Part shown: in pieces, positions 46,916-63,230 of the stretch
Position numbering within the stretch: the stretch's first letter is position 1
Layout of the letters: the number at the start of each line of letters is the position of its first letter
Assembly: GCF_902364355.1 (NCBI RefSeq)
Contig: NZ_CABJDK010000003.1
Span: 62,001 to 126,000, forward strand
Direction: 5' to 3'
Source: Collinsella aerofaciens
GTDB lineage: Bacteria > Actinomycetota > Coriobacteriia > Coriobacteriales > Coriobacteriaceae
Length of the DNA stretch: 64,000 bases
Notes under the pieces: generated by a model
What the model was told of the DNA's origin: nothing
Database searches by the model: none
What the model saw: only the letters and a program-made list of their open reading frames with translations
Program-made: the position numbers and the translations under genes

Positions 46916-47144
46916 CGCATCCATCGCCGGGCCGGCCGCAAGCCACGGGCAGCGCGCGTCCCGCGCAAGCCACACGCGCACCCCGCCCCACACGATGAAG
47001 CATGCGTAGAAAATCGCCCGCCGTGCCATTAAGGTGCGGCGGGCGCTTGTATACCAAGGCAACCTGCCTATAATGATGCAAGTCAAAAACGCCGAGCGCA
47101 TCGCACGCACTTGCATCAGGCATCCGAGAGGAGAAAACATACCC

Positions 47145-48908
47145 ATGAAGGCACTCTACAATGACGGTTCGGTGGCCGAGCTCCCGCAGGACGAGGTCAC
47201 GCACGTCATCCGCCACTCCGCCGCGCACATCATGGCGCAGGCCATCAAGCGCCTCTATCCCGAGGCCGACTTTGCCTACGGTCCCGCGACCGACAACGGC
47301 TTCTATTACGACGTCGACCTGCCCGAGGGCGTCAAGATCAGCGAGGACGATTTCCCCGCGATCGAGGCCGAGATGAAAAAGATTGTCAAGGAGAACCTCA
47401 AGTTCTCCGTGTACGAGAAGCCCCGCGCCGAGGCCATCGCCCTTATGGAGGAGCGCGGCGAGAAGTACAAGGTCGAGCACATCGGCGACCTGGACGACGA
47501 CGCCCGCATTACCTTCTACCAGCAGGGCGACTACATCGACATGTGCGTCGGCCCCCACATCTGCTACACCAAGGCCCTCAAGGCCTTTAAGCTCACCGGC
47601 GTCTCGGGCGCCTACTGGAAGGGCGACAAGGACAACAAGATGCTCACCCGCATCAACGGCGTCGCCTTTGCCACCAAGGAAGAGCTCGACGAGCACATGC
47701 ACATGCTGGAGGAGGCCAGGAAGCGCGACCACCGCAAGATCGGTCGCGAGATGGACCTCTTTATGATGCGCGACGAGGCCCCCGGCTTCCCGTTCTTCCT
47801 GCCCAACGGCATGATCCTTAAGAACGCGCTGCTGGACTACTGGCGCGAGATCCACCACAAGGCCGGCTACGTGGAGATCTCCACGCCGCTCATCATGAAC
47901 AAGCAGCTGTGGAAGACCTCGGGTCACTGGGACCACTACAAGGACAACATGTACTCCACCGTCATCGACGACGAAGAGTACTGCATTAAGCCCATGAACT
48001 GCCCGGGCGGCGTGCTGGTGTACGCCTCCAAGCCGCATTCCTATCGCGAGCTGCCCATTCGCGCCGGCGAGATTGGCCTGGTGCACCGCCACGAGCTGCG
48101 CGGCGCCCTGCACGGCCTGTTCCGCGTGCGCTGCTTTAACCAGGACGACGCTCACCTGTTTGTGCGTCCCGACCAGCTGACCGACGAGATCGTGGGCGTG
48201 GTCAACCTCATCGACTCCGTGTACCAAAAGTTTGGCTTTAAGTACCACGTTGAGCTTTCTACCCGCCCCGAGGACTCCATGGGTTCCGACGAGGACTGGG
48301 CGCGCGCCGAGGAGGGCCTGCGCACCGCTCTGGAGCAGCTGCATATGGACTATGAGGTCAACGAGGGCGACGGCGCCTTCTACGGCCCCAAGATCGACTT
48401 CCACCTGGAGGACTCGCTCGGCCGCACTTGGCAGTGCGGTACCGTCCAGCTCGACTTCCAGATGCCGCTCAACTTTGACCTGGAGTACGTAGACGCCGAC
48501 GGCACCAAGAAGCGCCCCATCATGCTGCACCGCGTGTGCTTTGGCTCCATCGAGCGCTTCATCGGTATTCTGATTGAGCACTTTGCTGGCAAGTTCCCCA
48601 CCTGGCTGGCCCCCGTGCAGGTCAAGGCGCTTCCGGTTTCCGAGAAGAGCCGCGACTATGCCCACGAGGTGTGCGCCAAGCTGGAGGAGGCCGGCATCCG
48701 CGTGGTCTGCGACGACCGTGACGAGAAGATTGGCTACAAGATCCGCGAGGCCCGCAGCATCGACCGCGTGCCCTACATGCTTATCCTGGGCGAGAAGGAG
48801 GTCGAGGCCGGCAACATCTCCGTCCGCGATCGCTCCAACGAGACCGTTCAGATGAGCGTTGACGAGTTTGTTGCCAAGGTACTCGAGGAGATTAAAACCC
48901 GCGCCTAA
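47145..48908 (+). CDS. thrS: Threonyl-tRNA synthetase without TGS domain
   Basis: A 587-residue class II synthetase charging tRNA-Thr. It starts almost directly in the N2 editing domain (HVIRHSAAHIMAQAIKRLYPE) and lacks the roughly 60-residue TGS domain present in Escherichia coli ThrRS (642 residues). HSAAH and the later DMCVGPHICYT carry the editing-site His/Cys set, and the catalytic core has NCPGGVLVY with the zinc Cys. The start at 47145 has GAGAGGAG upstream; the frame upstream has no binding site or TGS-like sequence. Shorter ThrRS forms exist in other bacteria. No T-box leader was seen. Confidence 0.94.
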   Translation: MKALYNDGSVAELPQDEVTHVIRHSAAHIMAQAIKRLYPEADFAYGPATDNGFYYDVDLPEGVKISEDDFPAIEAEMKKIVKENLKFSVYEKPRAEAIALMEERGEKYKVEHIGDLDDDARITFYQQGDYIDMCVGPHICYTKALKAFKLTGVSGAYWKGDKDNKMLTRINGVAFATKEELDEHMHMLEEARKRDHRKIGREMDLFMMRDEAPGFPFFLPNGMILKNALLDYWREIHHKAGYVEISTPLIMNKQLWKTSGHWDHYKDNMYSTVIDDEEYCIKPMNCPGGVLVYASKPHSYRELPIRAGEIGLVHRHELRGALHGLFRVRCFNQDDAHLFVRPDQLTDEIVGVVNLIDSVYQKFGFKYHVELSTRPEDSMGSDEDWARAEEGLRTALEQLHMDYEVNEGDGAFYGPKIDFHLEDSLGRTWQCGTVQLDFQMPLNFDLEYVDADGTKKRPIMLHRVCFGSIERFIGILIEHFAGKFPTWLAPVQVKALPVSEKSRDYAHEVCAKLEEAGIRVVCDDRDEKIGYKIREARSIDRVPYMLILGEKEVEAGNISVRDRSNETVQMSVDEFVAKVLEEIKTRA

Positions 48909-48930
48909 GGCAACCCAACAGAAACAACGA

Positions 48931-48966
48931 AAGGCGACCGTCCACAAAGGGCGGTCGCCTTTTTTA
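48931..48966 (+). terminator. Terminator after thrS
   Basis: AAGGCGACCG (48931-48940) pairs with CGGTCGCCTT (48952-48961) and runs into TTTTTT. Confidence 0.92.
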
Positions 48967-49012
48967 ATGCCAAAACGAGAAAAAGCCGCTGGTAGAGCGC
49001 CTTTTTTGTTGT

Positions 49013-49148
49013 GCAAAAAGGTACAGGTTTTTGTAGAGGGCTATGGAGATGTGTCCTTTCGCGCCGCAATTTGTGCAATCTGGGAAAACAGTCCGAATTA
49101 ACTTGTATAATGGCTCGTGTCGAAAGATACAAAAACCTGTACTTTTGC
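49013..49148 (+). promoter_or_regulatory. Possible invertible promoter of the polysaccharide locus
   Basis: GTACAGGTTTTTGTA (49021-49035) is the perfect reverse complement of 49128-49142, with further imperfect pairing outward (GCAAAAAG and CTTTTGC, giving arms 49013-49035 and 49128-49148). The 92-bp interior contains TATAAT at 49106-49111 facing the nusG-like gene; no good -35 is visible at the right distance. This arrangement is that of an invertible promoter, but could also be a regulator-binding pair. No recombinase gene is within the window. Confidence 0.5.
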
Positions 49149-49231: not shown

Positions 49232-49822
49232 ATGGAGCAGACAACGCGGCGCCAAGAGCAACTGCCGGGCGCATTCAACGGCGCAACTACCAACAGCCAG
49301 CATGGCCGCGTCCGCTGGTATCTGGTCCACACCCCCAACGGTAAAGAGCGCGAGACCTGCGAAAAGGTCCGCCGTATTATCCCGCACGATCTGATGCAGG
49401 ACGCTTTTGTGATGCAAAAGGAGTTCTGGTTTAAGCGGGACGGCGCCTGGTCGCTCCAAACCAAACCCATGTACAAGGAATATTTCTTCGTCGCCACGCA
49501 CGATGCCGCAGCGCTCGATAGGGCTTTGGCTCAACTGAGCTTTGGCTGCCGCATTGCCGGCAGCAGGGAGCGGGCCTATGCGCCTATGCCGGACGATGCG
49601 CAGGAGTGGTACCGCAGCGTGCTGGACGACGACGGAGTGGTGCGCAACAGCGTGGCGCGCATAGAAGATGGCGTGCTGCACATAGAGCAGGGTCCACTTG
49701 TGGGGCAAGAGGCCCGCGTTAAAAAGGTCGACCGTCATAAGCGCTGGTGCCTGGTGGACGTGGGCGAAGGCGTCTCCGCTTTTAGGGAGCTGCTTCCGCT
49801 GGACGTTCCCAGCAAAACGTAA
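49232..49822 (+). CDS. NusG-like antiterminator (LoaP/UpxY type)
   Basis: A 196-residue specialised NusG paralogue. The NGN-like domain starts RVRWYLVHTPNGKERETCEKV, and the C-terminal KOW-like part has GPLVGQEARVKKVDRHKRW. Such proteins (LoaP, RfaH, UpxY) travel with RNA polymerase to suppress termination in long polysaccharide or antibiotic operons. Position as first gene of a 12-kb exopolysaccharide locus fits exactly. The start at 49232 has AAGGGGG upstream; the first 35 residues are a poorly conserved tail. Its action would require a recognition element in the leader; a hairpin at 49882-49899 is a candidate. Confidence 0.85.
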   Translation: MEQTTRRQEQLPGAFNGATTNSQHGRVRWYLVHTPNGKERETCEKVRRIIPHDLMQDAFVMQKEFWFKRDGAWSLQTKPMYKEYFFVATHDAAALDRALAQLSFGCRIAGSRERAYAPMPDDAQEWYRSVLDDDGVVRNSVARIEDGVLHIEQGPLVGQEARVKKVDRHKRWCLVDVGEGVSAFRELLPLDVPSKT

Positions 49823-49870: not shown

Positions 49871-49899
49871 GGGGGGGGGGGGTTCCTGGGGACAGGAAC
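49871..49899 (+). repeat. G12 homopolymer followed by a 7-bp hairpin
   Basis: Twelve G residues (49871-49882) are followed by GTTCCTG (49882-49888), loop GGGA and CAGGAAC (49893-49899). The tract is either inside the phosphoglycosyl transferase frame (if TTG 49831 starts it) or in its leader (if GTG 49912 does). Tracts of this length are prone to slippage. The hairpin could be a LoaP-type recognition element. Confidence 0.75.
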
Positions 49900-49911: not shown

Positions 49912-50712
49912 GTGACTGCTAAAGAAGTAACAGAGAATAATGCGCCCGTGGGGGCGACGCTCATTGCTCGGGCCATGGACCGGCGCAAGGGCACGGCGGG
50001 TGCTGGGGTCGGCTCCGCTGCAAACACGGGTGCGGTGAGCCTCCCGGGCTCGCCCGAGTTCGCTGCAGAGTCCCGTGCGCTCGACACGCGATCGCTTGGC
50101 TACCGCTTCGTGAAGCGCACGTTCGACATCGCGTTCAGTGCGTGCGTCTGCGTCGTGGCTCTTATCCCTGGCACGGTTCTTTGCGCGTTCATTGCGGCCG
50201 ACACCAAGGGTGCTCCCATCTATGCGCACGAGCGGGCTGGGCGCTTCGGTCGCCCCATCCGCGTGCTCAAGTTCCGCTCCATGGTCGCCGACGCCAACGA
50301 CGTGGAGAAGTACCTCAGCCCCGAGCAGATCGAGGAGTGGCACCGCGAGCGGAAGGTCACAAACGATCCCCGCATCACCAAGCTAGGCCGCGTCCTGCGC
50401 AAGACTTCCCTGGACGAGCTGCCCCAGTTCTTCAACGTGCTCGCGGGCCAGCTCTCCGTCATCGGCCCTCGCGCCATCACCTACGAGGAGCTCGGGAACT
50501 TTACGCACGAGCAACAGGTGCAGGTGCTTGCCGTCCCGCAGGGCATTACCGGTGCCTGGCAGTCGGGCCCGCGCAACCTCGCGACCTTCGAGAACGGCCT
50601 GCGCCAGGAGTTCGAGCTTGCCTACGCGAAGGGTGCCAGCCTCAAGGCAGACTGGAAGGTCTTCTTCAAGACCTTTGGCGTCATGTTCGGCAAGAAGAAG
50701 ACGGGGAGGTAG
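49912..50712 (+). CDS. Phosphoglycosyl transferase (bacterial sugar transferase family)
   Basis: About 266 residues. The conserved domain begins YRFVKRTFDIAFS and continues with a re-entrant membrane helix, PIYAHERAGRFGRPIRVLKF, the catalytic DELPQFFNVLAGQLSVIGP region and the closing GITGAWQ segment. Enzymes of the WcaJ/PglC class move a sugar phosphate onto undecaprenyl phosphate, the first step of the repeat unit. Start uncertain: GTG 49912 is used here, TTG 49831 (AAGGGA upstream) would put the G12 tract in frame, and ATG 49975 has no site. The sugar is unknown. Confidence 0.88.
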   Translation: MTAKEVTENNAPVGATLIARAMDRRKGTAGAGVGSAANTGAVSLPGSPEFAAESRALDTRSLGYRFVKRTFDIAFSACVCVVALIPGTVLCAFIAADTKGAPIYAHERAGRFGRPIRVLKFRSMVADANDVEKYLSPEQIEEWHRERKVTNDPRITKLGRVLRKTSLDELPQFFNVLAGQLSVIGPRAITYEELGNFTHEQQVQVLAVPQGITGAWQSGPRNLATFENGLRQEFELAYAKGASLKADWKVFFKTFGVMFGKKKTGR

Positions 50713-50715
50713 CGC

Positions 50716-51633
50716 ATGAGTGCTGACAAACCCCTCGTCTCGATCGTGGTGCCGACCTACAAGCGCTCTGACAGGATTCGCGTGGCCCTGGACTCAATCG
50801 CCGCGCAGGACTACGGCGCGGAGAACATCGAACTGATTGTAGTGAGCGACAATCGGCCGGAGTGGCCGGAAAGCGCCGAGACCGACGCGGCGGTCGCCCC
50901 CTATGCCGCGAGCCTTCCGCACTTTAGGCTGCTGCACACCTCCGGCCAGACCGGCGGCGGGGCGGCGCGCAACTACGCCTGCCGCCAGGCGACGGGCGAG
51001 TACCTCACGTTCCTCGACGATGACGACGAGTTCCTGCCTGACAAGGTGTCCACCCAGGTCGCCTTCATGCAGGAAAACTCCCTCGACATGAGCTGGCAGG
51101 ATGTCTCGTGGTATGACGAACGTGGCCGGCTTGTGGAGCACCGCAGGCTCGACCATTGCGAGGACTTCTCCACCGAGGGTCTGCTGCGCGCGCACCTCCT
51201 AACGCCGATAAGCCCAACGGCCATCTATATGCTCAGGCGCGACCTGTTCGACCGCACTGAGGGTTTCGGCGAGGTGGCGACCGGCCAAGACTGGTGGCTG
51301 ATGCTGCGCTGCATAGAGGCTGGCGCCCACATGGGCTACATGCCCGAGGTGCACGTGAGGCAGTACCTCCATTCCGGCGAGAGGCTCTCGCTTGGCAAGA
51401 ACAAGGTAAACGGCGAGGTCGCAAGGCACGAGGTGGTGCGCGGCTACTACCCGCGCCTCAGCAAGAAGGATGTGCGCTACATCGAATTTCGCCACAACGC
51501 CGTGCTCGCCTTCGCTATGAAGCGCAGCAACCAGCCAGGCCAGGCTGTGATTTACGCCTTAAAGGCCATTGCCTCATCGCCCGCCGCCTGCGTCTCTGAG
51601 GCGCTGAAGTTCTTCGGCAAGGCGAAATCCTAA
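50716..51633 (+). CDS. Glycosyltransferase family 2
   Basis: A 305-residue GT-A-fold transferase. It opens [20 protein letters not shown]; the nucleotide-metal motif is [10 protein letters not shown] within [16 protein letters not shown], and [10 protein letters not shown] contains the QDW acceptor motif typical of GT2. There are no membrane helices, so it acts on the cytoplasmic face on the lipid-linked glycan. GGGGAGG precedes the ATG, three bases after the preceding stop. The donor is unknown. AGG arginine codons increase from here on. Confidence 0.88.
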
Positions 51634-51676
51634 CTATTTCATATGTGTGCCTGCTCTTAACGAAAGGTTGAATGAT

Positions 51677-52948
51677 ATGTCCGAAAAAATGAAGATAGCA
51701 GTCGCCGGCACCGGCTATGTGGGGCTCTCGTTGGCCGTTCTGCTCTCGCAGCACAACGAGGTGCGCGCGCTCGACATCGTCTCCGAGAAGGTAGAGAAGA
51801 TTAACGCTTTTCAGTCGCCCATCCAGGACGACGAGATTGAGCTCTTCCTGGCCGAGGCTAAGGCGGGCACGAGGAAGCTCGACCTGCATGCAACCGTGGA
51901 CGTCGCCGAGGCCTATACAGGCGCGGATTTCGCCATCGTGGCCACGCCAACGAACTACGACTCGGACCGCAACTTTTTCGACACCTCGTCTGTTGAAGCC
52001 GCAATTTCGGCAATCCGCTCGGTGAACCCGACGGCCTGGATTGTCATCAAGTCGACCATCCCTGTGGGTTACACTTCGTCGCTTCGCGAGACGCTTGGCG
52101 ACAGCCGCATCATCTTCAGCCCCGAGTTCCTTCGAGAGAGCAAGGCGCTCTACGATAATTTGCACCCTAGCCGCATCGTTGTGGGCGCGCCCAAGGACGA
52201 CGAGGAAGCTGTGAAGGCCGCAAAGACGTTTGCTGGGCTGCTCGCCCAAGGCGTCGGCCCCGCCGAGCTTGAGCGCACCAACCCTGATGGCACGACGGGC
52301 ATCCCGCAGCTCGTTCTTGGTACCACCGAGGCGGAGGCCGTGAAGCTGTTCGCCAACACCTACCTGGCACTTCGCGTGGCGTACTTCAATGAGCTGGACA
52401 CTTACTGCGAGATGAGGGGACTCAACACCAAGGACGTCATCGATGGCGTGTGCCTAGAGCCCCGCATTGGCTCCCACTACAACAACCCCTCCTTCGGCTA
52501 CGGCGGCTACTGCCTGCCCAAGGACACCAAGCAGTTGCTGGCCAACTATAAGGACGTGCCTCAGAACCTTATCGAGGCCATCGTCGATGCCAACCGCACT
52601 CGCAAGGACTACATTGCAGACGAGGTACTGCAACTGCTGTGGGACAAGGTATACGAAGGCAAGGAGAAGCCCGTGGCGGGCGTGTACCGCCTGACCATGA
52701 AGTCGAACTCCGACAATTTCCGCGCCAGTTCCATCCAGGGCGTTATGAAGCGCGTGAAGGCCAAGGGAGTGCCGGTCGTTGTCTACGAGCCAACGCTGGA
52801 CGCGCCGGAATTCTTCGGTTCCGAGGTGACGCATGACCTTGAGAAGTTCAAGGCCGAGTGCGACGTGATCATTGCCAACCGGTGGAGCGACGATCTGGCC
52901 GATGTTGCCGGCAAGGTGTATACCCGCGACCTATTCAAGAGGGATTAG
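51677..52948 (+). CDS. ugd: UDP-glucose 6-dehydrogenase-like nucleotide sugar dehydrogenase
   Basis: A 423-residue dehydrogenase that oxidises UDP-glucose to UDP-glucuronate with two NAD+. The NAD loop is [26 protein letters not shown] binds the substrate, and catalytic Cys279 is in [10 protein letters not shown]. It has GAAAGG upstream of ATG 51677. In this locus the UDP-glucuronate would feed the 4-epimerase (60087) and a GlcA transferase, and polymer-bound GlcA would be the substrate for the C5-epimerase-like protein (54243). GDP-mannose or UDP-ManNAc dehydrogenase are less likely alternatives. Confidence 0.9.
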
Positions 52949-52953
52949 TATTT

Positions 52954-54246
52954 GTGGCGATTACTGCTGATAAAAAAAAGAGACGGCTGCTCCTTCTGAC
53001 GAGGAGGTTCCCCTTTAACCGCGGCGAGGTCGCCGCTGAGTCCTATCTCGAGAACGAGATAGGCGTTCTTTCGACCTATTTCGACGAGGTGCTCGCCGTG
53101 GGGACCGAGGCGCAGCCGGGTGACGCGCCCACCTGCGCGCTGCCGGGCAATGTGACGCCCCTGGCCTTGGGTTGCGGTAATACCTCCAAGGACAAGGCTT
53201 TGCTTGCAGTCAAAGGGATCGCGTTTCCCCTTTTGGGCGGTGCGGACGTTCGTGAGGCCTATGCCACAGAATCCGTTCATGGAATCGGAAAGCGCGTGTT
53301 TCGGGGCTACTTTGCCGCGAGGGCGAAGGCAAAGGCGGACGTGCTTGCGGAGGAACTGGTCCGCTTTGGCTTTGAGCCCACGCACATATACAGCTTTTGG
53401 CTTTACGACACCGCTTTGGTCGCTGCTTGGCTGACCGGCACGTACCCATGTGCACGCGCCGTTGCGCGTGCACATGGGTACGATCTGTATGCAGATCGTA
53501 CCGATGTGCATTATTTGCCCTTCCGGGGATACCTCCTATCCAAGCTTTCCGGAGTGCTTCCCTGCTCGAAAGACGGGGAGGAATACATAAACGCGAACTG
53601 GCCGGGCCATGAGGGCAAGGTGACGACCTCCTATCTCGGAACGCGGGAGATGCCAGACAAGTCCGGCGAGCCGTTGACCTGCCCGTTGCGGGTCGTCTCG
53701 TGCTCGCGTATTGTCGACGTTAAGCGCGTGCCTCTTCTTGCTAAGGCTGTCACCCTTCTTGATGCCGAAGGGCTTCGCGTCGAATGGACCCATTACGGCG
53801 ACGGCCCACAGCTCGAGGAGGCGAGGGCCGCCTGCTCGTTGCTGACGCACTCCACCGCGAAGTTCGCGGGGGCTTTGCCGAACGACGCGCTTTTGGGGGA
53901 GTACGCAGCGAAGCATTTCGACGTCTTCGTGAACGTCTCGTCAAGCGAGGGCCTGCCGCTTTCGATCATGGAGGCCTGCGGATTCGGCATTCCCGTCATC
54001 GCCACGGACGTTGGCGGAACCCACGAGATAGTAAGCGATGGCGTCAACGGCTTTCTCCTACCTAGCGACTGTGGACCGGAAGATGTCGCCGCGGCCATAA
54101 AGCGATTCGTCTTTTTGGGCAAGGCCGAAGGGTCTTCTATGAGGCGCGCTGCAAGGGCCGTTTGGGAGAGGGACTTCCGTTTGGAGGCCAACGTGGAGGG
54201 GCTTGTGCGCTCGCTCGGAGTCGATTACAGAAACGAAGGTGAATGA
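52954..54246 (+). CDS. Glycosyltransferase family 4-like protein
   Basis: A 430-residue GT-B transferase. The C-terminal Rossmann half has VVSCSRIVDVKRVPLLAKA and SSSEGLPLSIMEACGFGIPVIATDVGG, the retaining-GT4 donor site with its EGLPLSIMEA glutamates. The N-terminal half is divergent. The start is GTG 52954 with AGAGGGA upstream. Its stop overlaps the next start. Two perfect hairpins (53442-53501) lie in the middle of the coding sequence. Sugar and linkage are unknown. Confidence 0.85.
   Translation: MAITADKKKRRLLLLTRRFPFNRGEVAAESYLENEIGVLSTYFDEVLAVGTEAQPGDAPTCALPGNVTPLALGCGNTSKDKALLAVKGIAFPLLGGADVREAYATESVHGIGKRVFRGYFAARAKAKADVLAEELVRFGFEPTHIYSFWLYDTALVAAWLTGTYPCARAVARAHGYDLYADRTDVHYLPFRGYLLSKLSGVLPCSKDGEEYINANWPGHEGKVTTSYLGTREMPDKSGEPLTCPLRVVSCSRIVDVKRVPLLAKAVTLLDAEGLRVEWTHYGDGPQLEEARAACSLLTHSTAKFAGALPNDALLGEYAAKHFDVFVNVSSSEGLPLSIMEACGFGIPVIATDVGGTHEIVSDGVNGFLLPSDCGPEDVAAAIKRFVFLGKAEGSSMRRAARAVWERDFRLEANVEGLVRSLGVDYRNEGE
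53442..53501. repeat. Two adjacent perfect hairpins inside a GT4 gene
   Basis: GTACCCATGTGCACGCGC (53442-53459) pairs perfectly, 18 bp, with 53464-53481 around loop CGTT. GTACGATCTG (53478-53487) pairs perfectly, 10 bp, with 53492-53501 around TATG. The two share the GTAC at 53478-53481. The frame stays open across both. Confidence 0.85.
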
Positions 54247-55193
54247 TGGGCCAGATTGCGCAGAAGATGACCATGCTCAAAAGGTGGAGCAAAATGCTCA
54301 CTGGCAAGACGGCTGTGGCCGTAGAGCAGAGCATGGGCAGGGCCTATAATGTCGGACAGTTGTCCGGGTACTACAACGATTTGACCGGCAAGGTCACTGG
54401 CAGTACTCTGCTCGACGAGGGCGGTGTCCCTGTTAGCGTCATCGCCGGTGGGGCGCGGGTGCATTTCCCCATCGCCATTTTCCAATACGGTTTGGGCTGT
54501 TACGACTTGAGCATTCTCAGGTCGGATGAAGTTGAGCGCTTTCTCGACGCACTAAGGGTATGCTCGGATTGGGCGATCGGCGCCCAGCGGGATGACGGCT
54601 CTTGGGACGCATTTGGTCCGATAGGCAGCGCTAAGTACTCCGTCTCCTCGATGGCCCAAGGCGAGGGGTGCTCGATGCTGCTGAGGGCCCATGCGGCTTT
54701 CGGGGACGAGTGCTATAGAGTTGCGGCGCTGAAAGCTGCCGAGTTCATGCTTATCGACATGGACAATGGCGGCGTGTCGTCGCATGACGGGGGAGAACTG
54801 TTCCTGGAGGAGTACCCTCAACGCCCCAGGCGCAGTGTCATGAACGGTTGGGTGTTTAGCCTTTTCGGTCTCTATGACGCATCGTTGGTCGACGCGCGCT
54901 TCGCCGGGCCATTCAAGCACTCTGCGGAGACGTTGGCTTGCCATTTGGATGACTACGACGCCGGCTTCTGGTCTTATTACGACATGGAAAAGCGTATCGC
55001 CTCTCCCGCCTACCATCATCTACATATAGCGCAGCTCCGCGCAATGGCGGATCTTTCAGGCGACGCAAGGTTCGCGGTGAAGGCCGAGGTATACGAGCGC
55101 TATCAGGAATCTCCGGCCAACCGCAGGAAGGCGATTGCTAAAAAGGCGCTGCAGAAGCTGATCGAGAAATCCGATGCGGTGATCGTCCAATGA
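54243..55193 (+). CDS. D-glucuronyl C5-epimerase-like protein
   Basis: A 316-residue soluble protein resembling the C-terminal domain of D-glucuronyl C5-epimerase, which turns polymer-bound glucuronate into iduronate. Supporting segments are MNGWVFSLFGLYD (200-212), FWSYYDM (242-248) and YHHLHIAQL (257-265), matching the NGxxxSLxGLYD, YDL and YHxxHIxQL features of the family. The fold is probably an alpha/alpha barrel. No secretion signal is seen, so it would act on lipid-linked glycan inside. Overlapping ATGA coupling joins it to the GT4 gene. A hydrolase of similar fold cannot be excluded. Confidence 0.68.
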   Translation: MMGQIAQKMTMLKRWSKMLTGKTAVAVEQSMGRAYNVGQLSGYYNDLTGKVTGSTLLDEGGVPVSVIAGGARVHFPIAIFQYGLGCYDLSILRSDEVERFLDALRVCSDWAIGAQRDDGSWDAFGPIGSAKYSVSSMAQGEGCSMLLRAHAAFGDECYRVAALKAAEFMLIDMDNGGVSSHDGGELFLEEYPQRPRRSVMNGWVFSLFGLYDASLVDARFAGPFKHSAETLACHLDDYDAGFWSYYDMEKRIASPAYHHLHIAQLRAMADLSGDARFAVKAEVYERYQESPANRRKAIAKKALQKLIEKSDAVIVQ

Positions 55194-56293
55194 AGAAGGC
55201 CCTCTATATCGTGACCTCGATGGACACCGGCGGGGCCGAGACGGTATTCATGAAGTATTACCGGGCTTTGGACAAGTCGCGCTATCAGCTCGACTTCTGT
55301 GTGTCGTCCGACGTGCCGGGCTTTTACGACGCCGAAATCGAGTCGATGGGCGGCAGAATTGTGCACACAGTCAAGAAGACCGAGGCCGGGCCGGTCGCTT
55401 CGTTCAAGCGGCTCATGCAGATAGCCCGGGACGGCGGTTATTGCTGTGCTGTCAGGTCGTCTCAGCACAGTCTTTCCTGTCTTGATTTGCTCGCCATGAG
55501 ATTCGGAGGCGTGTCCAGAACCATATTCAGGTCAAGCAACACGGGTACAGTTTCGAACAGCAAAAAGGAGACCCTGCTGCACAATCTTTTCAAGCCCCTT
55601 GTCAGGGTTGCGGCGACCGACTTCGCCGCCCCGTCTACCGAGGCGGGCGTCTACATGTTCGGCAAGGCGGGGGTATCGGGGCCGCGTTTCCATCTCATGA
55701 AGAACGCGCTCAACCTCGAGGACTACGCCTATGACGCTTCGACACGGGACGATGTTAAGCGCGAACTGGGCGTTCCTGCCGAGTCCTATGTCGTCGGGCA
55801 CGTCGGGAGGTTCAGTGAGCAGAAGAACCACCTCTTCCTTGTCGATGTTTTTGCTGAAATCGCCCGGAGAAGGCCAGACGCCGTCCTCATTCTCGTCGGC
55901 AAAGGCGAGACACGCACGGCCGTTGAGAGGCGCGTTGCCGAGCTCGGATTGACCGATAGGGTGGTGTTTGCCGGGGTTAGGAGCGATGTCCGCCGTCTCT
56001 ATTCGGCTATGGACGTCTTCATCTTCCCCTCTGTCTACGAAGGCCTGCCGAACGTCGTCGTCGAGGCGCAGGCAAACGGACTCCCTTGCGTGATTAGCGA
56101 CTCCATCACGCGGGAGGTTGGCATTTGCGAGAACGTCGTTTACAAAAGTCTGGGCGACGCTCTGGACGAATGGGCCGACGCCGCGCTCTCCGCGGATCGC
56201 ATAGGGTCAAGCGCCAGTGCGAGGGATTTGAAAGGCTCGGGCTATGAAATCAATTCGGAGCTTCCCGGTTTCGTGAGGCTGGTATTCGGATGA
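55190..56293 (+). CDS. Glycosyltransferase family 4 (EpsF-like)
   Basis: A 367-residue GT-B transferase. It opens ALYIVTSMDTGGAETVFMKY, the usual GT4 nucleotide-sugar start. VGHVGRFSEQKNHLFLVDVF and FPSVYEGLPNVVVEAQANGLP are the donor-site segments. AGA/AGG arginine codons are common, unlike in housekeeping genes. It overlaps both neighbours by four bases, so it is tightly coupled within the operon. Confidence 0.9.
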   Translation: MKKALYIVTSMDTGGAETVFMKYYRALDKSRYQLDFCVSSDVPGFYDAEIESMGGRIVHTVKKTEAGPVASFKRLMQIARDGGYCCAVRSSQHSLSCLDLLAMRFGGVSRTIFRSSNTGTVSNSKKETLLHNLFKPLVRVAATDFAAPSTEAGVYMFGKAGVSGPRFHLMKNALNLEDYAYDASTRDDVKRELGVPAESYVVGHVGRFSEQKNHLFLVDVFAEIARRRPDAVLILVGKGETRTAVERRVAELGLTDRVVFAGVRSDVRRLYSAMDVFIFPSVYEGLPNVVVEAQANGLPCVISDSITREVGICENVVYKSLGDALDEWADAALSADRIGSSASARDLKGSGYEINSELPGFVRLVFG

Positions 56294-57378
56294 ACTTTAT
56301 CGAAACATCGCTTTTCTACTTTCTTGTCGTTTTGCTTTCAGCGGCGCTTGCGCGCATGTCGGAAAACGGCAAAAGTAAGGCTGGGCTGGTCGCTGCCGTG
56401 GTTCTTCTTACCGCCGTCGGGGGCTTGAGGTCGTATGCGGTTGGGCAGGATACCCTGGGTTATAAAGAGGGAATCGAGTACTTCTACGCGTATGGGACCA
56501 CGATGTGGAACCATACGTTCAGCGTTCCGTACGGTGTCTTCACAAGTGCGGTGCTCCATATCTGTAACAATTACTCGTTCTTGCTCGTCGTCGAGTCGCT
56601 GATCACCAACGCCTTTTTTGCTTTCAGGCTTTGGGATTTTAGACGAACGGCATCGCTCTCGTTTGCGATGTTCGTCTATACGGCAACGGTGTTCCCGCTG
56701 TCTATGTGTCTGACGTGCCAGATGATTGCAGTCTCGCTGGTTTTCTACGCAACCAGGTTTTTAGAACAGAATAAGCCGTTGCTTTTTTGCGCTTGGTGGG
56801 CTGTTGGCGCTCTTTTGCACGCGTCCGCCCTGATAGGGGTCCTATTCCTCATCTACTACCTATTTTCCAACAAAAGCAAGAGCCGATCGCAGTTCGCCGC
56901 GAAGATGCTTGCATCGGTTGCCCTGCTGTTCCTGGCAGCTTATGCGGGCTCTAAGCTCGTCGACCGGTATGCGCGTTACTCCGTGAACGAATCGAGCATC
57001 GGGTTGATGGTTTTTGCGCAGGCGACCGTCCTCGCGATCGCATATTTCGTCAGCCGCGAAACTGCGAATGTTGCCCCGGTTGAGAGCGACGGAACGTCGC
57101 GGCTCAAAGCCAACCGGATGCCGCTCGTGTTTTACGCTTTAGGCATTTTGGCTTCGGCGTCCTCTTATGTGATTGCCAACGCCGGCCGCATAGCCTATTA
57201 CTTCACCGTATTAGGCCCCGTGATTTTCGGAGGCTTCGTGAAGGACGCTCGGAAAATAAAAGCCCGTTTTTGTCTTGGCTGTTTTCTAGTTGTCTGGTTC
57301 CTTTTCTACGCCTTTTATGCCTATCTGCTTCATACCGGGCTTGGTATCGAGTCTTATTCGTTCGTCTGGATGGGGTAA
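56290..57378 (+). CDS. EpsG-family polysaccharide polymerase (Wzy-like)
   Basis: A 362-residue membrane protein with about ten helices. GGLRSYAVGQDTLGYKEGIEY near residues 47-67 is the EpsG-family extracellular loop. It would polymerise lipid-linked repeat units on the outer face, after flipping by the Wzx-type protein encoded downstream. It overlaps the GT4 gene by four bases. Its GC is lower than that of neighbours. A palindrome TGCCCGAAA/TTTCGGGCA (57383-57403) follows the stop. Confidence 0.83.
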   Translation: MNFIETSLFYFLVVLLSAALARMSENGKSKAGLVAAVVLLTAVGGLRSYAVGQDTLGYKEGIEYFYAYGTTMWNHTFSVPYGVFTSAVLHICNNYSFLLVVESLITNAFFAFRLWDFRRTASLSFAMFVYTATVFPLSMCLTCQMIAVSLVFYATRFLEQNKPLLFCAWWAVGALLHASALIGVLFLIYYLFSNKSKSRSQFAAKMLASVALLFLAAYAGSKLVDRYARYSVNESSIGLMVFAQATVLAIAYFVSRETANVAPVESDGTSRLKANRMPLVFYALGILASASSYVIANAGRIAYYFTVLGPVIFGGFVKDARKIKARFCLGCFLVVWFLFYAFYAYLLHTGLGIESYSFVWMG

Positions 57379-57382
57379 ATAG

Positions 57383-57403
57383 TGCCCGAAACCGTTTCGG
57401 GCA
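57383..57403 (+). terminator. Hairpin after the polymerase gene
   Basis: TGCCCGAAA (57383-57391) pairs with TTTCGGGCA (57395-57403) around CCG. It lacks a T-run. If it terminates transcription, the antiterminator would be needed for the distal genes. Confidence 0.4.
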
Positions 57404-57521
57404 TATACGAGCAAAGTCTACGTTGGTGGTTTGCATACGCCCAGGGCTTGTTCCATGTGTAGCGCAGAGAATTAAAAAGTAAAACGCTTTGTTTAAGCTC
57501 GGACTTAAGGAAATTGTATAT

Positions 57522-58469
57522 ATGGAAAGCAAAATTAAAAAATACCTAAGTGACCCGTGGATGGCCTACTGTGCCTTTACGTCGAAGGGTCTAACGAAAT
57601 GGGTTTCCGACAGGACGCACCTTCGATTGATGCATCGCGCCAAGTTGGGCATGTGGCCTAGCATAGACTCGCCGGTGACCTTCACTGAGAAGATGCAGTG
57701 GCTGAAGCTTAACGATCACAACCCTGCGTACACGACCATGGTCGACAAGTACCGCGCTAAGGACCTCATTGCCTCGCGTGTGGGCTCCGAGCACGTGGTC
57801 AAGACGTTGGGCGCCTGGAATTCCGCTGATGACATCGATGTGAGTGGGCTACCGGAGAAGTTCGTACTCAAAACGAATCACGACTGCGGCGGCGTGCTCA
57901 TCTGCACTGACAAGGGACACTTCGATCTCAACAGTGCCAAGGACTTTTTTCGGGGTCATTTGAAGCAGAATTATTTTTACGGGTGCAGGGAATGGCCTTA
58001 CAAGAACGTGAAGCCCGTCGTGTTCGCCGAGGAGTTCTTGGAGAGCGAGGGCGATAATGCCCGTGATGAAGACGATAACTGGGAAGGCATCGACGAGTTC
58101 GACTTCTTCTGCTTTGACGGGGAACCCCGGCTGATTTCTTATTGCCACGGGGACAAGAACGATTCTGAGAAGAGGTACAACGATTTCTACGACACTGAGT
58201 GGAATCTGCTGCCTTTGGCGATGGGATACGCGAGTTCCGAAGAGACGATCCCTGCCCCGGAGCAGCTCAGCGAGATGCTCGAGCTATCAAGGAAACTGAG
58301 TGACGGTGTACCTTTCTTGAGGGTCGACCTCTTCATCTGCAAGGGGCGCGTTCTCGTCGGCGAGCTGACTTTCTACCCGTGGGGCGGGTTTACGCCTTTC
58401 AGCCCCGCTGAGGCGGAGAGGACGTTGGGGCAAATGGTTTCTTTGCCCCAACGTGAAAACGAGGAATGA
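57522..58469 (+). CDS. TupA-like ATP-grasp protein
   Basis: A 315-residue protein resembling TupA-type ATP-grasp enzymes found in exopolysaccharide and teichuronopeptide loci. FTEKMQWLKL near residue 60 and KFVLKTNHDCGGVLICTDK near residue 112 are family segments. A C-terminal ATP-grasp-like part has FLRVDLFICKGRVLVGELTFYPWGG. TupA adds glutamyl peptides to uronic acids, so this protein could amidate or modify a uronic-acid polymer; that is inferred. The start at 57522 (MESKIKK) has AAGGA upstream. Confidence 0.75.
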   Translation: MESKIKKYLSDPWMAYCAFTSKGLTKWVSDRTHLRLMHRAKLGMWPSIDSPVTFTEKMQWLKLNDHNPAYTTMVDKYRAKDLIASRVGSEHVVKTLGAWNSADDIDVSGLPEKFVLKTNHDCGGVLICTDKGHFDLNSAKDFFRGHLKQNYFYGCREWPYKNVKPVVFAEEFLESEGDNARDEDDNWEGIDEFDFFCFDGEPRLISYCHGDKNDSEKRYNDFYDTEWNLLPLAMGYASSEETIPAPEQLSEMLELSRKLSDGVPFLRVDLFICKGRVLVGELTFYPWGGFTPFSPAEAERTLGQMVSLPQRENEE

Positions 58470-58552
58470 TGGCAAACGAAAGCTGCATTCAGTGCGTGCG
58501 CATGGATAATCAGCCAGTAAGCGCGCTCCGGCGTTTCTTCATGGAGGTTTAG
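58469..58552 (+). CDS. Possible 27-residue coupling ORF
   Basis: ATG 58469 shares a base with the preceding stop and opens a 27-codon frame to TAG 58550-58552, one base before the flippase start. The peptide contains two cysteines (SCIQC). It may only serve translational coupling between the two genes, or be a remnant. There is no independent ribosome binding site. Confidence 0.2.
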   Translation: MANESCIQCVRMDNQPVSALRRFFMEV

Positions 58553-58553
58553 T

Positions 58554-60020
58554 ATGTCCGACACAAAAGACCTCCGGGCGAGGTCGGCAAGCGCGGCAAA
58601 GTGGTCTCTGGCAACCGAGATTATCGCCAAAATCATCTCGCCTATCTCGCAGCTCGTCTTAGCGAGGCTGCTGGCGCCAGAGGCGTTTGGCATGGTGGCG
58701 ACCGTCACCATGGTAGTGAGCTTTGCCGACATGTTCGCGGACGCCGGGTTCCAGAAGTACCTGGTGCAACACAGCTTCCGAGACAAAAAAGACCTGCATG
58801 CCAACGCTAACGTGGCCTTTTGGACGAACTTCGGCATATCGGTGGTCCTGTGGTGTCTCATTGCCATATTCAACGATCCGGTGGCCACCTTCGTGGGCAA
58901 TCCGTCGCTGGGCTTTCCCTTGGCCGTGGCCTGCCTCTCTCTCCCGTTGACGTCGTTTTCGAGCATTCAGATGGCGTTGTTCCACCGTAATCTCGATTTC
59001 AAGTCGCTTATGCCGGTGAGACTGACGTCGACCTTACTTAACTTCGGCTCGACGCTTGTACTGGCGTTTATGGGATTTGGTTACTGGTCACTTATCGTTG
59101 GCACTTTGGCGGCGAATATTGTAAATGCAGTGGGGCTGACTCTGCTGTCTGAGTGGAAGCCGCGTTTTTTCTACTCCTTCAACATGCTGAAGGCTATGTT
59201 CTCATTCAGCGGATGGACGCTTTTGGAGTCGTTCACCATATGGCTTTCCTCTTGGGCGGGCACCTTTATCGTGGGGCATTTCCTGGGTGCGGCTGAGTTG
59301 GGATATTACAAGACGCCAGTCACCTTTGTGAGCGGGTGCTTCGGGATTATCACGAACGCTACGACGCCCATCTTGTTCTCGTCACTTTCGCGCCTTCAGT
59401 TTGATCGGGAAGAATACGTTGCTTATCTGCGACGCTTCCAGTTCATGGTGGCATTGTTCCTGTTGCCGTTGTCTGCGGGTATCTTCGTATTCCGCGAGCC
59501 TTTGGTGGCCCTGTTGCTCGGCGATCAGTGGGGCGAGGCGACGCTCATGTTCGGGTTGTATGGGCTGGTGCAGGGGCCGATGGTGCTGCTCTCATACTAC
59601 AGCAGCGAGATGTATCGCTCTCTTGGTAAACCGCGCGTGTCTACGCTTGTGCAGGTGATGTACCTCGTGTTGATGACGCCGCTTATGACCGTGGCGGCTA
59701 TGCAAGGGTTCGATGCCGTCGTGTGGGCTGATGCGGGATTGAGAATCCTTTTGATTGCTATCAACCAAGTGGTCACATATTTCGTTGTTGGCCTTTCGTT
59801 TGGGCGCACTATGTTGTCGCTCAAGGAGCCCATTTTCTGCACATCGATGATGTGCGCATTTGCATGGGTGACGTATGGACTCGCATCTAGCAACTGGCTT
59901 GGCGTCGGGTTGGACATTGTAGGGTGCGTCGTTGTCTATTTCGCGATTTGCTTTGCTTTGCCCAAGAGTAGGAGGGTGCTGCTGAAGCTGGTCAAGGGCG
60001 GCGGCTTTAAAACGTTTTGA
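58554..60020 (+). CDS. Oligosaccharide flippase (Wzx, MOP superfamily)
   Basis: A 488-residue membrane protein with about 12-14 helices of the polysaccharide transport/MOP type. SAAKWSLATEIIAKIISPISQ and LVLARLLAPEAFGMVA form the typical N-terminus. It would flip lipid-linked repeat units to the outer face before EpsG-type polymerisation. ATGGAGG at 58541-58547 serves as the binding site. It is the only candidate flippase in the locus. Confidence 0.9.
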   Translation: MSDTKDLRARSASAAKWSLATEIIAKIISPISQLVLARLLAPEAFGMVATVTMVVSFADMFADAGFQKYLVQHSFRDKKDLHANANVAFWTNFGISVVLWCLIAIFNDPVATFVGNPSLGFPLAVACLSLPLTSFSSIQMALFHRNLDFKSLMPVRLTSTLLNFGSTLVLAFMGFGYWSLIVGTLAANIVNAVGLTLLSEWKPRFFYSFNMLKAMFSFSGWTLLESFTIWLSSWAGTFIVGHFLGAAELGYYKTPVTFVSGCFGIITNATTPILFSSLSRLQFDREEYVAYLRRFQFMVALFLLPLSAGIFVFREPLVALLLGDQWGEATLMFGLYGLVQGPMVLLSYYSSEMYRSLGKPRVSTLVQVMYLVLMTPLMTVAAMQGFDAVVWADAGLRILLIAINQVVTYFVVGLSFGRTMLSLKEPIFCTSMMCAFAWVTYGLASSNWLGVGLDIVGCVVVYFAICFALPKSRRVLLKLVKGGGFKTF

Positions 60021-60086
60021 GGTCTGTAATTAACTTGTTGGGAGTTCCATCTCAGGACTTCCTTAAAACGAAAGAGTGGGGTATAT

Positions 60087-61127
60087 ATGCAGGATAGAAA
60101 AGTCCTCGTCACTGGCGCCGCCGGCTTCATCGGGGCGTTTCTGGTGAAGCGGCTGCTCGAAACCACCGACGACGCGATCATCGGTCTGGACAACGTGAAC
60201 AGCTACTACGACCCTGGCATCAAGGAGGCTCGCCTGCGAATGCTGGCGGAGGTGGACAAGGCGGGGCGTTTCGCCTTCGTGCGCGGCGACCTGTGCGATG
60301 CCGCGTTGATAGAGCGCCTGTTCGCTGAGAACGGCTTCGACGTTGTGGTGAACTTGGCCGCCCAGGCCGGTGTGCGATACTCCATCGAGAACCCCAAGGC
60401 CTACATAGACAGCAACCTGGTAGGGTTCTTCAATATATTGGAGGCTTGCAGGCGCCACCCGGTGAAGCATCTTGTCTACGCGAGCTCTTCCTCCGTCTAC
60501 GGCGGCAACGAGAAAGTGCCTTTCTCGGAGGACGACCGTGTAGACTCTCCGGTGAGCCTGTACGCCGCCACAAAGAAGTCCAACGAGCTAATGGCCGCGG
60601 CCTACTCCAAGCTTTACTCCATCCCAGCCACGGGCCTGCGCTTCTTTACGGTGTATGGGCCCATGGGAAGGCCCGACATGGCATACTTCGGCTTCACCGA
60701 GAAGTTGCGTCGTGGCGATACGATTAAGATTTTCAACATGGGCGATTGTAAGCGCGACTTTACGTACGTGGACGATATTGTGGAGGGCGTGCGCAGGGTC
60801 ATGGACGGCGCTCCTGAGGTCAAGATCGGTGTTGATGGTTTGCCAATGGCCGCTCATCGCGTGTATAACATCGGCAATTCGAATCCCGAGAACTTGCTGA
60901 TCTTCGTTGATACGCTGCAGCGTGTGCTGGTTGAGGAGGGCGTGCTCCCCGCCGATTACGATTTCGAGGCGCATAAGCAGCTCGTTCCTATGCAGCCTGG
61001 TGACGTGCCTGTAACCTATGCGGATACTGGCGCCTTGGAGCGCGATTTTGGTTACAAACCCGCAACGCCGCTCGAGGACGGTCTTCGTGAATTCGCGAAG
61101 TGGTATCGCGAGTTCTACGGGAATTAG
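60087..61127 (+). CDS. UDP-glucuronate 4-epimerase-like SDR enzyme
   Basis: A 346-residue extended short-chain dehydrogenase. The NAD loop is GAAGFIG (10-16), DNVNSYYDPGIKEARL (35-50) is the hallmark of UDP-glucuronate 4-epimerases (CapI/LspL), and the catalytic pair is Tyr159/Lys163. It would make UDP-galacturonate from the product of Ugd. GAAAGAG lies upstream of the ATG. Codon use is close to that of the chromosome core, unlike the preceding genes. Confidence 0.87.
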   Translation: MQDRKVLVTGAAGFIGAFLVKRLLETTDDAIIGLDNVNSYYDPGIKEARLRMLAEVDKAGRFAFVRGDLCDAALIERLFAENGFDVVVNLAAQAGVRYSIENPKAYIDSNLVGFFNILEACRRHPVKHLVYASSSSVYGGNEKVPFSEDDRVDSPVSLYAATKKSNELMAAAYSKLYSIPATGLRFFTVYGPMGRPDMAYFGFTEKLRRGDTIKIFNMGDCKRDFTYVDDIVEGVRRVMDGAPEVKIGVDGLPMAAHRVYNIGNSNPENLLIFVDTLQRVLVEEGVLPADYDFEAHKQLVPMQPGDVPVTYADTGALERDFGYKPATPLEDGLREFAKWYREFYGN

Positions 61128-61140
61128 CTGGGTGATAGCA

Positions 61141-61650
61141 ATGTCGAATGTATACAGCAGTGACCGTATTCGCTTTGGGGAGGGGTCTATTCTCTCAAAC
61201 CATGCTTTGAGGTTTGTTTGGCTACTTCGAAAGTGCCAGAATTCGCACAATCCTTTATGGCATCTTTTTCGAAAGAGGATGGCTTGCAAATATGGTCTCG
61301 AGATCGCGCCTGCCACCTCGATTGGCGAAGGCTTGTATCTGGGTCACGCTTTTGGCATTACGGTAAACCCGAATGCCGTTATCGGTCGCAACTGCAATAT
61401 GCACAAAGGTGTGACATTTGGTCGGGAAAACCGCGGCAAACGAAAAGGTGCGCCTGTTCTTGGCGATTGCGTTTGGCTTGGTGTCAACTCAACTATTGTT
61501 GGTGGCGTTCGTTTAGGCAACGACGTTCTCGTTGCACCGAACACTTATGTTAACTGCGACGTACCAAGCCATTCGATTGTGATTGGGCACCCATGCAAAA
61601 TCATTTCTCGAGATGGGGCAACAGACGAATATATAAACAACAGGGTCTGA
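61141..61650 (+). CDS. Serine acetyltransferase-like hexapeptide protein
   Basis: A 169-residue left-handed beta-helix acyltransferase. The C-terminal half has hexapeptide repeats (IGEGLYLGHAFGITVNPNAV, then IGRNCNMHKGVTFG) and VIGHPCKII at the end, as in CysE. In a polysaccharide locus it more likely acetylates sugars than serine. The start at 61141 is used because the frame upstream overlaps the epimerase gene. It is the last gene of the locus before the IS110 element; the 150-bp spacer after it holds no gene. Confidence 0.78.
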   Translation: MSNVYSSDRIRFGEGSILSNHALRFVWLLRKCQNSHNPLWHLFRKRMACKYGLEIAPATSIGEGLYLGHAFGITVNPNAVIGRNCNMHKGVTFGRENRGKRKGAPVLGDCVWLGVNSTIVGGVRLGNDVLVAPNTYVNCDVPSHSIVIGHPCKIISRDGATDEYINNRV

Positions 61651-61803
61651 ATAATAAAATCGGTTTTACATGTCTTATCCAGGATAGAGGGGGGTGTTCC
61701 TATAGTTTTGTCAACTGGGAAATGCTCTCCGTGCGACCGAATCGCGGCATGCTGACGCCAAGCCATTAGGCCGGTGGGCTTCAGTCTGCTCGGTGCGTTT
61801 CGG

Positions 61804-62961
61804 CTAGGCTGCGTAAGGCACCCTGTCTCGCATGACCGCGTAGATGACCTTCAGTCTCTTTCGCGCCAGCGCCTTGAGCGCCTTGCCGTGCGACATGCCC
61901 CGCTCCCGGCACCTGGTGTAGTAGTCGCCCCATCTCCCCTCTGTCCGGGTAAGGCAGTTACATGAGAATATGAGCAGGTTCTTCAGCCTCTTGTTGCCTT
62001 GGCGCGATGCCGTCACCGAGGAGATCGAGGTTCCCGACTGGCGGTTGCGCGGCGCCAGGCCGCAGTACGACGCGAGCCTGTCGTGACTGGGGAAGTCTTC
62101 GATGTCGATGGAGATCGCAAGCTCGGAAGCGGTTTTGGGCCCGATGCCCGGCACCGTCAGGAGGCATCGGTAGGTATCGTCGCCCTCGAGCAGGGCGGAG
62201 ATCTCCGCCGTGATCGCCTCGATCTCCGCCGAGTTCTCGGATATCCTGCGCGCGAGCAGTTTCACCGCCCGGTCCTCGGCGGCGACGACCGACGCATCCG
62301 GCCTTGTCGAGGAGGTTGTCGAGCGGACGAGGGCCTCGATCTTACCGCGCGCCGCCCCACGCGTGAGCGCCGCCGCCCTGCGGGGCCCGGCGTCGGCTAC
62401 CGACCAGGCCCCGCCGAGGGATGCCATGAGCCTCAGCTGGGGCCCGTCGGACAGGTCGACCAGTGCCTCGAAGGCGGGGCACGATTCCAGCAGGATGCTG
62501 CGCAGCCGGTTCTTATTCCTAGTGTTCTCGCAGGTCAGGAAGTTCCTCTGGGCGGCCAGCGCCCTCGCCGCCGCAATCGTCGGACCCGGGTCTCCGACCG
62601 GCAGGAGCGCGTCGGGGATGCCAAGCGCCGTCTTCGCGATGACCATCGCGTCTCGCTCGTCGGTCTTGGCGTCGCCGGCGAAGAGCCTGGCGGCCCCGTG
62701 CGCCGCGAGTCCCGGCAGGTACGCCGCCGACATCCCGGCCGCCCTGGCGCGGGCGAGCGCGAGGGCGCCTATGTTGCGCGACTGGTCGACGACCACGAGC
62801 GCATCGGGGAAGCGGCCGAACAGCGAGTCCAGGTCGTCCTCCCTGTTCGCGACGGGGGTGCTCAACAGCACCTCGCCATCTCGAGTCGCGACGCATGCCC
62901 AGTGGGACGATTTCCCGACATCGAGCCCGATGACGGCTTCCGGCATTCTAATTGGTGCCAC
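61804..62961 (-). CDS. IS110-family DEDD transposase/recombinase
   Basis: A 385-residue recombinase. The N-terminal RuvC-like domain has GLDVGKSSHWACV (Asp in the first DEDD position) and AKTDERDAMVIAK (DE..D). The C-terminal Transposase_20 domain has VPGIGPKTASELAIS, a helix-hairpin-helix, and GNKRLKNLLIFS with the family serine. The start is GTG 62961, eight bases after GGAGG; TTG 62976 would overlap that site. Recombinases of this group insert with the help of a structured bridge RNA from the non-coding end. Length is normal, so the element may be active. Confidence 0.92.
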   Translation of the reverse strand: MAPIRMPEAVIGLDVGKSSHWACVATRDGEVLLSTPVANREDDLDSLFGRFPDALVVVDQSRNIGALALARARAAGMSAAYLPGLAAHGAARLFAGDAKTDERDAMVIAKTALGIPDALLPVGDPGPTIAAARALAAQRNFLTCENTRNKNRLRSILLESCPAFEALVDLSDGPQLRLMASLGGAWSVADAGPRRAAALTRGAARGKIEALVRSTTSSTRPDASVVAAEDRAVKLLARRISENSAEIEAITAEISALLEGDDTYRCLLTVPGIGPKTASELAISIDIEDFPSHDRLASYCGLAPRNRQSGTSISSVTASRQGNKRLKNLLIFSCNCLTRTEGRWGDYYTRCRERGMSHGKALKALARKRLKVIYAVMRDRVPYAA

Positions 62962-62979
62962 GGTGGTATCCTCCAATCG

Positions 62980-63200
62980 GTAGGCCGATCGGAACCCCTC
63001 CCCGCGACACCCACATTACCTGGCCGTGGCGCTTGCGCCCGGCAGTTTCCTATCAGTCGTCCGGAGCGGCGAGCGCCCCCGGTGGCAACACCCCCCGGGC
63101 CCTCTACGGGGCAGGGGCAGACGGCCATCCGGAGGCGCCCGATCGGCGGCCCCTCGGGGCTTGCCCGTATCGTAGGCAATGCGCCGAATGCTCGCCATCG
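62980..63200 (-). ncRNA. Candidate bridge RNA of the IS110 element
   Basis: The 5' non-coding end of the element, about 220 nt and very GC-rich, precedes the transposase gene on the minus strand, where bridge RNAs of the IS110 group are encoded. Many stems are possible. One, at 62973-62992, pairs CCGATCGG with CCGATTGG through a G-U pair on the minus strand, while the plus strand would have an A-C mismatch; this favours a minus-strand RNA. Guide loops could not be assigned by eye. Confidence 0.4.
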
Positions 63201-63230
63201 AAATTTATCGATGGCCTATTTCAGACTGTA

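Follow-up and report, generated by a model that had tools for sequence, protein, structure and literature searches.

A 92-bp invertible segment with a putative promoter faces a LoaP-like antiterminator gene at the head of a Collinsella capsule locus

In Bacteroides, the capsule promoters upstream of UpxY genes invert, and they are flipped by Mpi or by local recombinases. Mpi is a serine recombinase that acts in trans, and the second gene of the Bacteroides UpxY loci encodes the inhibitor UpxZ. The hix-type sites of serine invertases consist of AT-rich half-sites around a 2-bp core. Akkermansia, a further point of comparison, belongs to another phylum than the organism treated here. LoaP has been reported from Bacillota, Actinomycetota and Spirochaetota, with a requirement for a UNCG hairpin in B. 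velezensis (PMC12691694), and a phase-variable capsule locus has been described in the gut bacterium Akkermansia (PMC13343947). A 2026 preprint on Eggerthella lenta describes inversions of 1.9-2 Mb that reposition capsule loci relative to LoaP; these inversions involve a 16-bp repeat, no recombinase lies adjacent, the authors contrast them with promoter inversion, and capsule variation by megabase inversion leads to phage escape (PMC13174815). A survey of invertons puts the median at 14 for an Actinobacteriota genome; Collinsella goes unmentioned in its main text and may still be listed in its supplement (PMC11892184). An account of E. lenta prophage recombinases was considered as a possible precedent and concerns a different system (PMC8778435). 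Among the papers listed by literature searches, none describes, by its title or the opening of its abstract, the switch reported here.

The locus lies in a stretch of 64,000 nucleotides, hereafter the window, whose organism groups with Collinsella, as expected from an initial annotation that had proposed a probable actinobacterium. Its features are, in order:

47034..48908, + strand: thrS, threonyl-tRNA synthetase, the upstream neighbour, outside the switch
48930..48962, + strand: hairpin 3' of thrS followed by a T run (found by repeat search and by eye; not returned by the sequence scan)
48980..49007, no strand assigned: A-run, hairpin and T-run adjoining the left arm (found by eye; not returned by the sequence scan)
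49017..49035, + strand: left arm and recombination site, with core GTACAGGTTTTTGTA at 49021-49035
49023-49024, in the left arm: proposed 2-bp crossover core AC
49036..49127, + strand: invertible segment of 92 bp, TATAAT here directed toward the LoaP-like gene (presumed ON)
49106..49111, + strand: putative -10 element TATAAT, with no -35 match
49128..49146, - strand: right arm and recombination site, with the perfect 15-mer at 49128-49142
49232..49822, + strand: LoaP-like NusG-paralogue antiterminator of 196 aa (profile models)
49915..50712, + strand: first capsule gene, bacterial sugar transferase (PF02397)
50716..61650, + strand: capsule and polysaccharide genes, annotated by domain (glycosyltransferases, UDP-sugar dehydrogenase, C5-epimerase, EpsG, TupA ATP-grasp, flippase, NDP-sugar epimerase, hexapeptide transferase)

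Re-measurement of the coordinates upholds the perfect 15-bp inverted repeat with imperfect extensions that the initial annotation had described around the 92-bp segment. An inverted-repeat search of the window returns arms of 19 nt, paired at 18 of 19 bp (95% complementary) and spaced by 92 nt, and their perfect 15-mers occupy 49021-49035 and 49128-49142. Further copies of the arms were absent from the window at two or fewer mismatches. Perfect inverted repeats of at least 15 bp spaced 30-400 nt number six in the window, and 100 first-order Markov windows contain 0.04 on average. This places the repeat beyond chance, yet it is not the sole such repeat in the window. Two other parts of that description also hold, namely that a TATAAT is aimed at a NusG-like antiterminator gene and that it has no clear -35: the promoter scan returned 0 sigma-70 sites.

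The antiterminator is called LoaP-like since LoaP was the best of the five models listed, yet below its cut-off: it scores 88.4 bits with the LoaP model NF033641 (cut-off 125) and 22.4 bits with UpxY (cut-off 100), and its match to PF02357 (E 0.002) is under the cut-off. The same protein is found in 15 public Collinsella records at 92-96% identity; several of these overlap the genomes sampled below, so they count as no extra evidence. Between loaP and the sugar transferase gene lies a poly-G tract (49871-49882) whose length differs among genomes, with 12 G in the window, 11 in the nearest genome (G001), 8-10 in several relatives and about 5 in others; it may reflect slippage-based variation or a tract sensitive to sequencing. 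It is followed by a small hairpin 3' of loaP, CCTG-GGGA-CAGG at 49883-49898, which is kept with stem changes in several relatives and altered in others and is a candidate LoaP recruitment element. A simple stem search of the leader in the window and four relatives found no UNCG hairpin. On the thrS side, the stem at 48980..49007 is imperfect in the window and better in relatives; from its sequence it may be a bidirectional terminator for the transcript made in the OFF orientation.

Orientation was compared in a sample of 43 Collinsella genomes, 21 of which match the region; the window's own assembly lies outside the sample. Against G001, the left flank of the window shows 99.6% identity over 266 bp, its right flank agrees at 454/454 positions, and between them the 92-bp segment aligns on the minus strand (97.8% over 90 bp). 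From the right arm onward the two remain 99.94% identical over 5.4 kb, and in the right-flank alignment they are indistinguishable (100%, 721 columns) yet hold the segment in opposite orientations. The inversion, which had been put forward from the repeat and gene order, is thus seen directly. We counted the window together with the 17 genomes in which LoaP is present and the right arm can be read: the segment points toward LoaP in 12 and away in six; a single orientation throughout the related genomes, the outcome named beforehand as speaking against inversion, was looked for and is not what they show. The right-flank tree requires at least six changes of orientation (5-6 across the bootstrap), three of them forced by its starred branches. 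Four of the 21 genomes were left out of the count: G013 has a reversed segment, decayed arms and a truncated LoaP; G007 and G011 have the left part only, reversed in the former and in the window's orientation in the latter; and the G029 contig stops at the left arm.

Draft contigs stop at or near the repeat in G007, G011, G029, G061 and G062, as they would if the intergenic repeat were static and the differences in orientation were products of misassembly. This explanation is scarcely credible: the arms are only 19 bp, assemblies of one to three contigs show both orientations (OFF in G001 and G059, ON in G015), and loci in other genera are likewise inverted. Inversion of the 92-bp segment is as good as shown by the assemblies.

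The capsule region differs among the relatives in other respects. In G008 the segment contains an insert of about 300 bp upstream of the -10, apparently flanked by a copied GGGGTATGGAGATG (L010), and an insert is also present in G011 (L012) and G061 (L050), where the contigs end inside it. Compared from 39 kb on, identity of the window to G001 is 88-92% at 39.1-46.3 kb and then higher, at 98.8-99.9%, in the remainder that starts at about 46.25 kb; the capsule locus, together with the switch, looks to have been exchanged between lineages. The window carries an IS110-family element at 61695-63232 that G001 lacks at the corresponding position, the two capsule loci being 99.9% identical apart from it.

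Comparison of the two orientations also locates the crossover. The bases just outside the arms keep their chromosomal place in both orientations, and an arm variant, GTACAGGTTTTTATA, accompanies the G-rich end of the segment whichever way it lies, in ON loci (G003, G008, G061) as in OFF loci (G059, G060). Provided that the variant arose only once, fixed outer bases together with a travelling variant confine the exchange to GTACAGGTTTTT, a 12-bp interval that includes the proposed 2-bp core. The consensus of 34 arms from 17 switches is AAA(A/G)GTACA(C/G)(C/G)TTTT, with a dyad around AC; seven of the 17 loci came via the pattern search, and one switch (G170) was missed by the script. This consensus is partly a matter of construction, because arms were chosen by a GTACA-like pattern; arms detected by inverted-repeat search alone, with no motif imposed, likewise have cores of GTACAC or GTAGAC. 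The window's own dyad is imperfect, with GG where other genera carry CC. The sites look like those of serine invertases. Exact site pairs number at most one per genome in the C. aerofaciens group, and in 396 genomes drawn from the phylum the site pattern matched in two only, both of the window's genus.

The initial annotation had proposed searching beyond the locus for serine and tyrosine recombinases, and this was carried out on the relatives. A serine recombinase of 201 aa has an ortholog at 87-100% identity in all 21 relatives matching the region, and in the other 22 genomes of the genus the best identities are at most 69% (0/22 above 70%). In G062 the gene is split across two contig pieces (L232/L233), the N-terminal part at 87-88% and the last 62 residues at 97%. 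Co-occurrence of recombinase and switch is weak evidence by itself, as the 21 genomes form one clade and ancestry confounds the association. In G001 both lie on one 2.2-Mb contig, 1.6 Mb apart (about 0.6 Mb if the contig is circular), and the recombinase gene is flanked by genes encoding RNase R-like and VanZ-like proteins. The protein matches PF00239 over residues 4-152 (E 5.5e-30), has weak helix-turn-helix (HTH) matches under the cut-off at residues 167-198, and aligns over residues 5-192 to the solved DNA-invertase 3uj3, the best PDB scores being to Sin and resolvases; with the Mpi model it scores 39.1 bits, the cut-off being 272. In the phage collection its best match is 61%, and among the matches listed for the plasmid collection one, a Collinsella aerofaciens record, is at 99% and 4999 are under 60%. 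Serine paralogues of 223 aa in G005, G007, G012, G015 and G064 were considered as the partner of the switch and set aside, having no LoaP neighbour.

Other genera of the order provide a second line of evidence. In 395 genomes of the order, the site pattern matched in 25 (18 in the genus and seven outside it), with two matches for a reversed-pattern control. Five of these seven genomes have the segment lying between a homologue of the recombinase (62-67%) and LoaP (43-55%). In the sixth, G255, the sole LoaP within 3.1 kb is a distant one (29%). The seventh, G387 (L257), has five copies of an inverted repeat fitting the pattern; the one of these loci that was looked at has neither recombinase nor LoaP within 3.1 kb. 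Starting instead from the recombinase, we assembled 94 loci around homologues outside the orthologous set, comprising the best 80 of a longer list and 14 from a second search; the set includes the five outside-genus switches and some near-duplicates, and the recombinase could be scored in 93. In 26 of the 93, LoaP follows on the same strand no more than 1.2 kb downstream, the other 67 having no LoaP neighbour, and in 23 of these 26 core-bearing inverted arms lie strictly between recombinase and LoaP. As for the other three, the arms at L299 overlap the match called as LoaP, and no arms were scored between the two genes at L219 or L291; the L219 arms were picked up by the pattern search as L246. 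Inverted repeats scoring at least 12 occur in 33 of 91 downstream regions; the upstream controls have them in 10 of 91, and at a looser cut-off of at least 10 the counts are 56 and 31 of 91. Among 12 pairs of loci compared, four show the segment inverted between otherwise collinear loci, and the other eight are collinear or too diverged; in the pair L315/L324 a collinear alignment also crosses the segment. At L297, L313, L305 and L337, recombinase homologues with no LoaP in the fetched stretch have inverted arms downstream (GTAGAC core; the L305 repeat scores 114), so this recombinase family may flip segments next to other genes as well. Physical linkage of the recombinase to sites and LoaP in other genera is stronger evidence than co-occurrence, and it makes the 201-aa serine recombinase a strong candidate for the flipping enzyme, acting in trans, which we regard as a well supported inference.

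The same invertible promoter might be flipped by a different enzyme, either a tyrosine recombinase such as XerC/XerD or one that escaped recognition, with the serine recombinase a marker of the clade that tracks the switch by descent. Tyrosine recombinase domains do occur in 43 of 43 genomes of the genus, the strong matches being, we take it, XerC/XerD, but they are equally present in the 22 genomes that have no such region. In G001 a 346-aa tyrosine-recombinase-like frame (Phage_integrase 26.5 bits, cut-off 27.1) lies about 2.7 kb upstream of the switch; G019 has it in the corresponding position with 99% conservation, and G010 has it there in broken form. In G015 a 70% relative carries a TAG and lies far from the switch, and the other 17 genomes matching the region gave no strong match. 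Present at the switch in just 3 of 21 genomes and missing from the window, this frame cannot be the general partner, and is a possible partner in its own carrier genomes. Together with similar sites lying directly between the serine recombinase family and LoaP in other genera, and with a dyad around 2 bp that suits serine recombinases, these observations leave flipping by another enzyme improbable, and the serine recombinase is the enzyme we favour.

Other recombinase genes were encountered in and around these loci. A stretch of about 4.4 kb in G001 (L145 7256-11623, about 3 kb before the switch), which the window does not have, holds HTH and DUF3800 genes along with the tyrosine-recombinase-like gene and, next to the capsule locus, resembles a small mobile island. 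We rejected as a partner another tyrosine recombinase frame, of 328 aa and interrupted by an in-frame TAG: it occurs in at least 11 genomes, those listed all matching the region (the matches of G004 and G013 do not include it), and it appears decayed, looking like an old pseudogene shared by L136 and others. The initial annotation had stated that no recombinase gene lies nearby; this stands for serine recombinases, with no match in the window at E<=1, and is qualified by an IS110 transposase (61804-62976) about 12.7 kb off. A Piv-like invertase role is a familiar idea for IS110-type transposases, and it was rejected here because G001, which is without the element at 61695-63232, still has the inverted switch.

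Whether the segment acts as a promoter bears on a further alternative, in which the segment inverts while a fixed promoter drives LoaP and inversion is either neutral or exerts its effect through the RNA leader. The lack of a -35 element would fit such an arrangement, as would the 10 LoaP-adjacent segments, among the 26 scored, that gave no TATAAT; the others have it pointing toward LoaP (five) or away (11). Against this, 16 of the 17 segments in the arm set retain GTATAAT (that of G255 reads TTATAAT) even though the segment, where alignable, is more diverged than its flanks; within the C. aerofaciens group the motif is altered in a few segments (G019, G062) and kept in most relatives. We consider a fixed promoter unlikely, somewhat more so than a different flipping enzyme, and take the segment to be the probable operative promoter.

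The data presented above have led us to propose a model, which we hold to be very likely, whereby the locus is a phase-variation switch built on an invertible promoter. A serine recombinase of Hin/Gin/resolvase size, encoded elsewhere in the chromosome, would bind both inverted sites through half-sites around the 2-bp AC core and flip the 92-bp segment. In the ON orientation, that of the window, the -10 would face right and transcription would pass through the right arm into the LoaP-like gene, whose product would allow RNA polymerase to read the long capsule operon. In the OFF orientation the promoter would point toward the terminators of thrS, leaving the capsule locus silent. Thus the segment would control the capsule locus by way of LoaP, and flipping would be expected within a clonal population. 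On a broader scale, we think it probable, with less confidence than in the switch itself, that the locus belongs to an order-wide family of capsule switches, made of a dedicated serine invertase, a promoter between hix-like AC-core sites and a LoaP-like antiterminator, with an origin apart from UpxY/Mpi. In the C. aerofaciens group the invertase would have parted from its target, to lie beside an RNase R-like gene (as seen in G001) and act in trans on a single capsule locus.

For the capsule of a human gut actinobacterium this amounts to a predicted on/off switch, with a candidate enzyme, sites and orientation markers that can be scored by PCR or in metagenome reads. The linkage of LoaP-like genes to invertible segments makes a role for LoaP in capsule loci testable, and the apparent parallel to the capsule switches of Bacteroides involves another phylum and another NusG paralogue. 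With Akkermansia the organism shares a gut habitat and a phase-variable capsule locus, in a different phylum. Closer in descent is E. lenta, also of the class Coriobacteriia, where capsule loci, LoaP and inversion tied to capsule variation recur; its repeat has another sequence, and the inverted segments there span 1.9-2 Mb against 92 bp here. The recombinase resembles the Hin/Gin invertases in its size of about 200 aa, resolvase domain, weak C-terminal HTH matches and alignment to 3uj3, and its sites resemble hix sites in having AT-rich half-sites around a 2-bp core; unlike Hin/Gin, its best PDB scores are to Sin and resolvases and its target is a capsule antiterminator. The initial annotation had likened the arrangement to UpxY loci, and the likeness holds in so far as a short inverted-repeat segment faces a NusG-paralogue gene heading a capsule operon, with a serine recombinase that, like Mpi, would act in trans. 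It fails for the gene itself, which is LoaP-like and not UpxY. The host is an actinobacterium, the second gene is a sugar transferase with no UpxZ-like gene, exact site pairs do not exceed one per C. aerofaciens-group genome, and the recombinase falls far below the cut-off of the Mpi model. The Collinsella switch follows the logic of the Bacteroides UpxY switches but is not a member of that family.
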